A stretch of DNA of 34,324 nt from Candidatus Sungiibacteriota bacterium (GTDB lineage Bacteria > Patescibacteriota > Minisyncoccia > Sungbacterales > HO2-52-23). Positions within the stretch are counted from its first letter, which is position 1. The number at the start of each line of letters is the position of its first letter. The notes beneath the pieces are model-generated. The model was given only the letters and a program-made list of their open reading frames with translations. It was not told the origin of the DNA and ran no database searches. Shown one piece after another: positions 17,732 to 31,051 of this stretch. Made by a program: the position numbers and the translations under genes. The DNA is taken from the NCBI GenBank assembly GCA_016181585.1, contig JACOYX010000005.1:1-34324 (forward strand), in the 5' to 3' direction.

Positions 17732-18466
17732 ATGGCACTCAACCAAATGAACGAAGAATTTAATGACGCATTTCAGACCTATTTTCCGCCGCAAAACCGC
17801 GTGCAGAAAATTCTTTATGGCGGTTTTACTTCCTTTATTTTAAAAAGCATCAAGCTTCACCGAAAGCTTTTTGGCGGAAAACTCGCGGTCAACGAGCGGG
17901 TGATTGAATATCCGTATATTTTCCAGCGCATAAAATCAGGCGCTCGGGTGCTCGACATAGGCTGTGTTTCTTCGCGGCTTACAATAGAGCTTGCAAGTTT
18001 GGGGCATGAAGTGCACGGGGTGGATGTGCAGGGCTATCCTTTCCGGCACATCAATTTTCATTTTCATAAAGAAGATATTTTCCGGTGGAATCCGGCAATT
18101 TCGTTTGATAGTATTGTACTTATTTCCACTATTGAGCATTTTGGCCTCGGGGGATATGGAGATTCGGTGGTCGAGGATCCGGACAAGCGCGCTATCGAGC
18201 GCATTGCGAAGTGGCTGAAACCCGGCGGCCAGATGCTTATTACCACTCCCTTTGGAAAGCCGGGACAGACATCGAAGCATAGGATTTATGACCGTGCGCG
18301 TCTGAAGCTGGTTTTTCCAGACGATAAGTTTATTTGGAAAGACGAGCGATACTTTCAGCGTATTGACGGCAGTTGGATGCCTTCTTCCGAAGAAAAATTG
18401 CGCCAAATAGAGTCGCGCTCATATCCGGTAAATGGGGTAGTGTTTTTGGATCTTGAGAAAAAATGA
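17732..18466 (+). CDS. SAM-dependent methyltransferase (class I)
   Basis: ARVLDIGCVSSRLTIELASLGHEVHGVDVQGY...LISTIEHFGLG...RIAKWLKPGGQMLITTPFGKPG. Confidence 0.85.
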   Translation: MALNQMNEEFNDAFQTYFPPQNRVQKILYGGFTSFILKSIKLHRKLFGGKLAVNERVIEYPYIFQRIKSGARVLDIGCVSSRLTIELASLGHEVHGVDVQGYPFRHINFHFHKEDIFRWNPAISFDSIVLISTIEHFGLGGYGDSVVEDPDKRAIERIAKWLKPGGQMLITTPFGKPGQTSKHRIYDRARLKLVFPDDKFIWKDERYFQRIDGSWMPSSEEKLRQIESRSYPVNGVVFLDLEKK

Positions 18467-19905
18467 TGCATAAAACACTTTTCATCACCATGACTTCGAA
18501 TATGGTTTTCCGGAATCTTTTCTTTTTTCCGGGAAGCGTGTTTGATCGTCTTTGCCAGGAATTGAAAAGAAGCCCCGATCTTCGGATCGTGGTGATTTTA
18601 AATAAAAAGGATTTAGAAAAATATTCAGTATTTTTTAAAGATGTGCTGGGAGAGCGATGTGTTATGATTCCCGCCGCCGTGCCGTATCCTAAAAATTTTC
18701 TGGAGAAGGCGTTTAATTTCTTTTATTCATATTTTATTTATACCGGCACTACAAAAACGCTAGCGACTGTCGGTATGCGTCTCGATGAGCCCCCGGCCGG
18801 CGGCAGGTTTAAAAAATATCTGGCTCCTTTGAAGATGGGTATTGCAAAAACATTCGGCCGTTCGCGCTTTATGCGCGAAAAAGCGGTACCCGCGCTCTAT
18901 CACCGGATTTTTAAAGGGAGGCAATTTGCATCTCTTTTCGACCAATATCAGCCGTCTGTTGTGTTCGCTTCCCATGTTTTTGGGCGCATCGATACCGAGC
19001 TCCTTGCCGAAGCAAAAAGGCGCGGAGTAAAAACTATGGGAATGGTGTCCTGCTGGGATCATTTCGATAAATATTATTTGCCGTTTAAGGTGGATACATT
19101 GCTTGCACAAAGCGATCAGGTGAAGGATTTTGCAGTAAAGTATCAAGGATATAGTTCTCGCAATATCGTACTCACCGGCCATCCTTATTTCGACTTTATG
19201 GTAGATAAAAAATATGCGGCGGCACGAAGCGATACTCTTGCCATGCTCGGCATCCCCGAACATTCAAAATATATTCTCTATGTATCCGGAAGCGCCTATT
19301 GCCAGGACGAGCCGGAAATCATTGAGGAGATTTTAAACTGGATGAATGAGAATCGGTTCGGTACTGATGTGCGGCTGGTTATCCGGCCGTATCAGGGTGG
19401 ACGCGGGAAGGATAAGGAATTCGATAAGCAAAAATACGATCGCTTCGAATCGCATCCGCGAGTGGTATTTTTCCGCCGCGAGCTTTGGAGTGATTTACAG
19501 CGAAGTGTGGATTTTGCCAATATCTTGCGCCACTCTCATGGCGTGCTCGCGGTCTATAGCACAATGACACTCGAGGCCGCGGTTATGGATGCGCCCCTGG
19601 TCGGCGTTGCGTTCGACGGGCGTCATATCCGGCCGTTTAACCGTTCTATCAAGCGATTTGCCCTGCGTGAGCACTTCAAAGATGTCTTTCAAAGCGGTGC
19701 TGTGGCGATGGCGCATGATTTTGACGAGCTTTTTCATATAATCCAGGAATATTTAGGTAATCCCAAAAAAGATCAGGAGGCGCGGGAGCGCTTGCGAAAG
19801 CGCATGTGCTATACGCTTGATGGGAATATTTCGGAAAGAATGGCGAAAACGATTTTAAATTCACTAGACCTACTGCGTAAAGATTTTCGTAACGAAATTT
19901 CTTAA
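18463..19905 (+). CDS. Uncharacterised GT-B-like protein, paralog family P (copy 1)
   Basis: KTLFITMTSNMVFRNLFFF; GMVSCWDHFDKYYLPFKVDTLLAQSDQ; YSTMTLEAAVMDAPLVGVAFDG; aligns by eye with 26130, 28226 and 29639 proteins. Confidence 0.7.
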   Translation: MMHKTLFITMTSNMVFRNLFFFPGSVFDRLCQELKRSPDLRIVVILNKKDLEKYSVFFKDVLGERCVMIPAAVPYPKNFLEKAFNFFYSYFIYTGTTKTLATVGMRLDEPPAGGRFKKYLAPLKMGIAKTFGRSRFMREKAVPALYHRIFKGRQFASLFDQYQPSVVFASHVFGRIDTELLAEAKRRGVKTMGMVSCWDHFDKYYLPFKVDTLLAQSDQVKDFAVKYQGYSSRNIVLTGHPYFDFMVDKKYAAARSDTLAMLGIPEHSKYILYVSGSAYCQDEPEIIEEILNWMNENRFGTDVRLVIRPYQGGRGKDKEFDKQKYDRFESHPRVVFFRRELWSDLQRSVDFANILRHSHGVLAVYSTMTLEAAVMDAPLVGVAFDGRHIRPFNRSIKRFALREHFKDVFQSGAVAMAHDFDELFHIIQEYLGNPKKDQEARERLRKRMCYTLDGNISERMAKTILNSLDLLRKDFRNEIS

Positions 19906-19991
19906 TTTAGAGACAAAATCGTTGAATAAATTTCGAGGCCTATCGGCTTAGATAAGTCAAGAAGTAGAAGTATCTTTGCGCAGTAGGTCTA
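19865..19991 (+). mobile_element. Long-inverted-repeat element, variant A, internally deleted (127 bp)
   Basis: TAGACCTACTGC...GCAGTAGGTCTA ends; nearly identical to 24958..25121 but missing part of the right arm; contains the stop codon of the upstream CDS. Confidence 0.8.
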
Positions 19992-29620: not shown

Positions 29621-29638
29621 TAGTCTCGATATATTTTT

Positions 29639-31051
29639 ATGGCACAAGAGTATAAAAAAACAATTTTACTTCCGATCTATCATGGCATGCGCGCAAAGAA
29701 TTTTCTGCTTACGGATACGTATCGCGAGCTCGCCAAAGACACGGCAATTCGTCTTGTCATTGTAGCGCCTTCGTTTAAGATTGATTATTATCGGCGCGCC
29801 TTTCCGGAGGCGGATGTTGTCTTTGCGCCGCTGGATATAAGCCCGAATGACGAACCTTTGTTTGGAAAATTGCTTGCGGAGCTTGCTTTCAATTCGCTTG
29901 ATACGAATACGATTCGCTTCAAGCAGTTGCTGCAATATTGGCAATACGGCAATTTACCGCGGTTTTTTTTGAAGCGCACTCTCAATTATATTTTTGGTTC
30001 ATTTACTTCATCCAGATCCGTTATCCGATTTTTGGATCGTTTTGTGGCGCCTCATGCCGCGGTTTTGCGTATTTTTGATCAATATAATCCCGATTTGGCG
30101 CTTGCGCCTGACATTGTTTTTCCGATTGACCGTTTTTTTCTTCGCGCAGCGCGGAAAAGAGGGATTCCTACGGCAGGCATGATGCGTTCGTGGGACAATA
30201 TTACTGCAAAAGGGGTTGTGCAGATATTGCCGGATATGTTAATTCTTCACACGACGCGCATGAAGAGGCTTGCAGAAAAGCTGGTGGGAATGCCGGCAGA
30301 AAAAATAATGGTAAGCGGTCCTCCGGACTTCGATGACTATTACAAGCCGGCCATTTTTTCGCGCGAGGAGTTTTGTCAAAAGCTTGGTATTCCTGCGAGC
30401 CGGCGCATTGTGTTGTTCACTCCGTTTTTTGACGCATCTATTGACTCGGCAATCATACTTCTGCAGGAACTTTTAAAAGCGCTTGATGATGGCCGGATTC
30501 CTTACGATGTACAAATACTTCTGCGCTACCGTCCCGGGTATACTGCCGCATCTTCTCTTGCAATTCCATCTCATCCGCGTCTTGTGATTACCTATCCGTG
30601 CGAGCAGTATTTTTATGGGAAGAAAGGCGCGAAAGAAAGAATTATTGACTGGGAATTTTCAAAGCAAGATGTGGATCTGCTCACTCATTCTATGCGCTAC
30701 AGCGAGGTGATGGTGAATACCGTTTCTACGCTTACGATAGATTCCGCGGCTTGCGACAAACCGGCAATAGGGGTACGGTTTGACGCCGCGCCCAACTGCC
30801 CACCTGAACATCAAATAACCAAAGTTATGGATCTCCACGATCACTATAGAGAGCTTGAACGCACGGGAGGGATACGGCTGGCTAAAAATATCGACGAGCT
30901 GATCGGGAGTATTAATTTTTACCTCAAGCATCCGGAAGCCGATCGCGATGGAAGAAAGCGGATTTGCGAAGAGCAGATTGAATTTTTTGACGGGAAAAAC
31001 GGTACGCGCGCCGCGGAATTTATTAAAAGTGCAATTCGTCCAGCACATTGA
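29639..31051 (+). CDS. Uncharacterised GT-B-like protein, paralog family P (copy 4)
   Basis: KTILLPIYHGMRAKNFLLTDTYREL; GMMRSWDNITAKGVVQILPDMLILHTT; STLTIDSAACDKPAIGVRFDA. Confidence 0.7.
   Translation: MAQEYKKTILLPIYHGMRAKNFLLTDTYRELAKDTAIRLVIVAPSFKIDYYRRAFPEADVVFAPLDISPNDEPLFGKLLAELAFNSLDTNTIRFKQLLQYWQYGNLPRFFLKRTLNYIFGSFTSSRSVIRFLDRFVAPHAAVLRIFDQYNPDLALAPDIVFPIDRFFLRAARKRGIPTAGMMRSWDNITAKGVVQILPDMLILHTTRMKRLAEKLVGMPAEKIMVSGPPDFDDYYKPAIFSREEFCQKLGIPASRRIVLFTPFFDASIDSAIILLQELLKALDDGRIPYDVQILLRYRPGYTAASSLAIPSHPRLVITYPCEQYFYGKKGAKERIIDWEFSKQDVDLLTHSMRYSEVMVNTVSTLTIDSAACDKPAIGVRFDAAPNCPPEHQITKVMDLHDHYRELERTGGIRLAKNIDELIGSINFYLKHPEADRDGRKRICEEQIEFFDGKNGTRAAEFIKSAIRPAH

Follow-up and report, generated by a model that had tools for sequence, protein, structure and literature searches.

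An old family of probable GT-B glycosyltransferases in a surface-glycan gene cluster of a Candidatus Sungiibacteriota bacterium and its genomic link to nonulosonic acid synthesis

Organization of the gene cluster

The window described here is the entire contig C7 (JACOYX010000005.1, 34,324 nucleotides) of a Candidatus Sungiibacteriota genome, the assembly of which (GCA_016181585.1) comprises 867 kb and is 86% complete. It carries a surface-glycan cluster with GT4 transferases, GmhA/HldE, a GT9 heptosyltransferase, sugar dehydratases, many methyltransferases and a PhyH-like oxygenase, followed at the 3' end of the window by a PseF-like CMP-nonulosonate synthetase on the minus strand. Four paralogous proteins of this cluster, P0001 to P0004, and their relatives are referred to as family P. 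The features are:

10832..12840, plus strand: GmhA, HldE kinase and HldE adenylyltransferase genes (ADP-heptose supply) of the same cluster, as read from the sequence
17699..18466, plus strand: SAM methyltransferase immediately 5' of P0001 (Pfam PF13489)
18463..19905, plus strand: P0001, family-P GT-B protein, subfamily C1, 480 aa, motifs CWDHF and RPYQ
20008..21144, plus strand: GT9 heptosyltransferase-like protein (PF01075, E 1e-25)
22789..24030, plus strand: methyltransferase (Methyltransf_23, Pfam), paralog of the one at 31048
25143..26123, plus strand: PhyH-like 2-oxoglutarate/Fe(II) oxygenase, HxD...H...R pattern
26130..27479, plus strand: P0002, family-P GT-B protein, subfamily C2, 449 aa, motifs SWDNL and RCHP
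27476..28210, plus strand: SAM methyltransferase between P0002 and P0003 (Pfam)
28226..29620, plus strand: P0003, family-P GT-B protein, subfamily C3, 464 aa, motifs SWDNL and RAHP
29639..31051, plus strand: P0004, family-P GT-B protein, subfamily C4, 470 aa, motifs SWDNI and RYRP
31048..32334, plus strand: methyltransferase (Methyltransf_23, Pfam), overlapping the end of P0004
33445..34188, minus strand: CMP-nonulosonate synthetase (NeuA/PseF type), 135 bits with the PseF model, below its cut-off of 205.7

The four reading frames lie where the original prediction had placed them, with a TTG at 28214 as an alternative start of P0003, and the Pfam matches agree with the interleaving with methyltransferases that it described. 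It had also named a PhyH oxygenase among these genes. The protein at 25143..26123 gives no Pfam match when searched alone; PhyH is matched by three of its six aligned homologs (best 1.2e-5) and the HxD...H...R pattern is invariant in the alignment, which agrees with a PhyH-like protein.

Sequence similarity and conserved motifs

Homology among P0001 to P0004 extends through most of each protein. In BLASTP every one of the six pairs is significant, mostly near full length, with 23-31% identity and E-values from 2e-18 to 6e-54, computed at a database size of 10 Mb. Contig C28 of this genome adds three full-length copies and one weak, partial copy, and up to seven copies occur per genome. The shared motifs listed in the original prediction are real, though looser than described: P0004 has AKNFL where RNxL is expected and ends in NGTRAAE instead of SERVA, and P0001 has the variant CWDHF of the WDN/H motif. 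Among 55 relatives the firmly conserved positions are the W and D of the WD motif (52/55 and 53/55), the R of 'lvRxxP' and the P of 'dkP' (55/55 each), an S/T pair (52/55 and 54/55) and, in 'GxPxxD', the G (55/55) and the D (54/55); the D of WD, the Arg and the S/T pair stand out among them.

Subfamilies and distribution

In a tree of 110 members P0001 to P0004 fall into four separate supported subfamilies. Each subfamily has orthologs in sister genera of the same family (f1) and in f31, i.e. in at least two GTDB families; judged from sequence comparison the four proteins are therefore old paralogs, one per subfamily, and not recent tandem copies.

A scan of genome contigs with the ortholog set delivered nine loci, and the related contigs bear the names of Sungbacteria, Giovannonibacteria and other Parcubacteria. 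Two or three of the four types are co-located in eight other genomes: in G003, G008 and G115 the P0001, P0002 and P0003 types are grouped, their order differing from genome to genome, and other combinations are found in G007, G010, G073, G093 and G169. They are accompanied by varying methyltransferases, PhyH-like oxygenases and heptosyltransferases of the GT9 type, and as each of these partner genes recurs in about three loci, tailoring varies. Outside the class full-length matches are restricted to a few other Patescibacteria families, and a phage collection contained no match to family P.

Fold and relation to curated families

No single curated family covers P0001 to P0004, in keeping with their earlier description as poorly characterized; the scores with NF046086 (BFO_1060) and PF04464 are mostly below or near the cut-offs. 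NF046086 is matched by all 55 sampled members (E down to 2e-23), but far below its 200-bit cut-off in the four proteins (38-52 bits), and the cut-off is exceeded in 0 of 55 genomes. No paper on BFO_1060 was found in the literature. PF04464, the domain of TagF and TarL, is matched by 46 of the 55 members, mainly by the C-terminal half; with a gathering threshold of 22.1, P0003 (35.8) and P0001 (34.2) score above it and P0004 (22.0) and P0002 (14.9) below. The sialyltransferase families GT42 and GT52 (PF06002 and PF07922) gave no Pfam match in the four proteins, and no genes for them were found in the 34 genomes carrying family P, nor in any control genome. The view that P0001 to P0004 are not standard GT4 proteins was supported.

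An AlphaFold model of P0003 based on an alignment of 25 sequences (pLDDT 91.7, pTM 0.90) has a GT-B fold with two Rossmann-like domains and, near the N-terminus, a helical insert some 80 residues long; it superseded a mediocre fold of P0001 from four sequences (pLDDT 72). The top Foldseek matches are generic GT-B proteins, many of them UDP-GlcNAc 2-epimerases, so that the fold agrees with the predicted GT-B likeness while the search has no discriminating power; within the best 50 matches the query TM-score is at most about 0.57 for every solved structure. By sequence profile the best solved relative is TarL (8va1, E 6.5e-9), with further matches to 8sxw at E 3e-4, and hhalign aligns the family with a true TagF-like protein across the C-terminal half (E 1e-10). 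The resemblance of the C-terminus to CDP-glycerol-type transferases thus corresponds to remote homology with PF04464. Taken together, P0001 to P0004 are likely GT-B glycosyltransferases of an undescribed family.

Association with nonulosonic acid synthesis

Family P (match with E<1e-30) is carried by 34 of the 188 genomes of the class. NeuB is present in 33 of these 34 carriers and in 24 of the 154 other genomes (Fisher 3e-20), and NeuA in 34/34 versus 26/154, both counts being uncorrected for phylogeny. RmlC, chosen as a control, shows no association (8/34 versus 31/154, P 0.65). The relation is one-way, as many genomes with NeuB are without family P. The copy numbers of family P and NeuA are correlated (rho 0.45, P 0.007, genome richness uncontrolled). 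Three NeuB-type and three NeuA-type genes in the genome studied here are candidate makers of the donor in the same organism. A search of the literature on nonulosonates in CPR bacteria found nothing.

On the level of single genes the picture differs between subfamilies. NeuA or NeuB lies within three genes of the P0004 type (C4) in 7/7 cases versus 52/110 family-wide (hypergeometric 0.004, uncorrected), and in two genomes the NeuB reading frame overlaps the P0004-type gene. For the P0003 type (C3) the corresponding count is 0/7. Immediate adjacency to NeuA/NeuB over the whole family (strict set of 110 proteins) is not in excess, with 22 cases against 20.1 in within-locus shuffles. A first count of 36/134 (shuffle mean 27) was discarded as inflated, because the iterated profile had drawn in NeuC/PseG-like proteins of about 390 aa; the excess vanished with the strict set.

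A single strong member adjoins NeuA, or is one gene away from it, in four genomes of family f7 (G054, G079, G156 and G184), where the surrounding cluster also encodes NeuB, a transketolase, a HAD phosphatase and radical-SAM proteins. On a Rhizobium plasmid, a homolog (233 bits with profile A2) comes directly after an acylneuraminate cytidylyltransferase, within a cluster that contains NeuB and NeuC.

Two clusters were noted in passing. One, conserved in f7 (L168 6254-14196; also L170, L171 and L172), contains NeuA, a radical SAM protein, a 3-hydroxyisobutyrate-dehydrogenase-like protein, a fused transketolase, a HAD phosphatase, an SDR and NeuB, and looks like an unusual ulosonic-acid pathway. 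The other, on a plasmid of Rhizobium sp. WL3 (L100 2946-8795), holds four more hypothetical proteins of 450-510 aa beside NeuB/KpsF, weakly similar to the family profile; they may be a further group of divergent GT-B proteins.

Comparison with CMP-sugar transferases

A (K/R)xHP motif marks CMP-sugar transferases, and KrkA, a Kdo transferase, requires the corresponding His (PMC12887879). The motif is complete in P0002 and P0003 and incomplete in P0004 and P0001, and its His is present in only about one third of family-P members. Members with RxHP are found closer to NeuA/NeuB (18/37 versus 20/73 of the others, P 0.03, uncorrected for relatedness). That P0004 is without the motif is awkward, because this protein provides the best genomic link to NeuA/NeuB.

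The transferases of Tannerella forsythia for pseudaminic and legionaminic acid have a TagB domain and an HP motif (PMC7439481, PMC6388019). As far as a comparison by description goes, GtfS and TFUB4_00887 (PMC6388019) resemble family P in their similar length of 442-445 aa, their TagB-type domain (PMC7439481) and their CMP-nonulosonate context. SpsB of Bacillus subtilis, another protein with a TagB domain, is not the legionaminic acid transferase (PMC7439481).

Alternative readings and proposed function

The original prediction suggested a route for a decorated, methylated glycan or a polyol-phosphate polymer. If P0001 to P0004 were CDP-glycerol or CDP-ribitol phosphotransferases of the TagF/TarL type, the frequent PF04464 matches and the rank of TarL as best solved relative would be explained; (K/R)xxP and S/T motifs are shared with these enzymes. 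The catalytic residues of TagF include two histidines, one in WHG and one in HP. Among the 188 class genomes a PF04464 match of nearly full length was found only in G039 (L084 1480-2715, E 9.8e-67); it is a genuine TagF-like protein that retains WHG and KLHP, whereas the 55 family-P members have no conserved His at the first site (178-183) and a His at the second (position 296) in only 18 cases; their N-terminal half differs as well. TagD is above cut-off in 0/34 carriers, a count by which CDP-polyol supply is judged on TagD alone; the TagD model has a single, weak match in this genome, to the HldE adenylyltransferase. As the histidines are not conserved and TagD was not found in the 34 carriers, polyol-phosphate chemistry is unsupported and very unlikely for the four proteins, while the methylated glycan, with its methyltransferases and oxygenase, is retained. 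Equally very unlikely is an activity as UDP-sugar 2-epimerases or hydrolases (NeuC/PseG-like) instead of transferases. The many epimerases among the Foldseek matches and the profile matches to 8sxw speak for it, yet the likeness to non-hydrolyzing UDP-GlcNAc 2-epimerases is one of overall GT-B fold with a TM-score of only about 0.55, the helical insert of the P0003 model is an additional difference, NeuC models are matched weakly by only 3/55 members, and a distinct NeuC of 390 aa, above its own cut-off, adjoins a family-P gene in this genome.

A serious possibility, slightly less likely than the explanation preferred below, is that the four proteins are GT-B glycosyltransferases for ordinary NDP-hexoses or ADP-heptose and that they are linked to NeuA/NeuB only because large glycan clusters of one type contain both. 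Up to seven family-P copies face one to three NeuA genes per genome, adjacency within clusters equals that of shuffles, P0003 orthologs are not near NeuA/NeuB, and ADP-heptose genes and GT9 are found within the same cluster. Against this reading stand the lack of association of the generic sugar marker RmlC, in contrast to NeuB, which is present in 33/34 carriers, the use of cytidine nucleotides by the closest solved relatives by sequence, and the constant proximity of the P0004 subfamily to NeuA/NeuB.

The explanation we prefer, at somewhat less than even confidence for the whole, is that P0001 to P0004 are paralogous GT-B glycosyltransferases, each of which would attach its own, different residue to a single surface glycan that is methylated and contains heptose and nonulosonate, some of them from CMP-nonulosonate donors. 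Family P is distinct and, through its C-terminal nucleotide-binding domain, remotely related to the cytidine-nucleotide enzymes TagF/TarL. The donor phosphate may be held by the invariant Arg of R-x-x-P together with the S/T pair; the likely catalytic residue is the WD-motif Asp. For part of the family, with P0004 and its orthologs as first candidates, the most likely donor would be CMP-nonulosonic acid made by NeuB/NeuA of the same genome. Whether at least one of the four uses this donor is a nearly balanced question, leaning slightly to the negative; that all four do so is unlikely.

Since nearly all genomes that carry family P have the means to make sialic-acid-like sugars, some members may be new transferases for them. 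The farther-reaching idea of an undescribed CMP-nonulosonate/CMP-ulosonate transferase family in Paceibacteria, with up to seven specialized paralogs per genome, several with the (K/R)xHP His replaced, building glycans with several sialic-acid-like sugars, is rather unlikely. Transferases for pseudaminic and legionaminic acid are few and hard to recognize, and hardly any work exists on the surface glycans of CPR bacteria. Nearly always found with NeuB/NeuA, in single copy or expanded depending on the genome, family P offers concrete enzymes and donors to test.

Repeats and palindromes

A repeat element, about 130-170 nt long and bounded by inverted ends (TAGACCTACTGC...GCAGTAGGTCTA), is located at 12836-13003, 19860-19995, 24952-25124 and 34228-34324 of the window. 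It is MITE-like and supplies the last approximately 13 codons of P0001. Outside the window it is found on two other contigs, C28 and C24, as well as in the relatives G010 and G003. The copy at the contig end probably broke the assembly there. Palindromes are present at 14142-14195, 21181-21232 and 32431-32468, with centers of CGATCG or GCGATCGC, one of them a perfect palindrome of 38 nt. GCGATCGC occurs four times in the window, compared to 0.3 expected from base composition.
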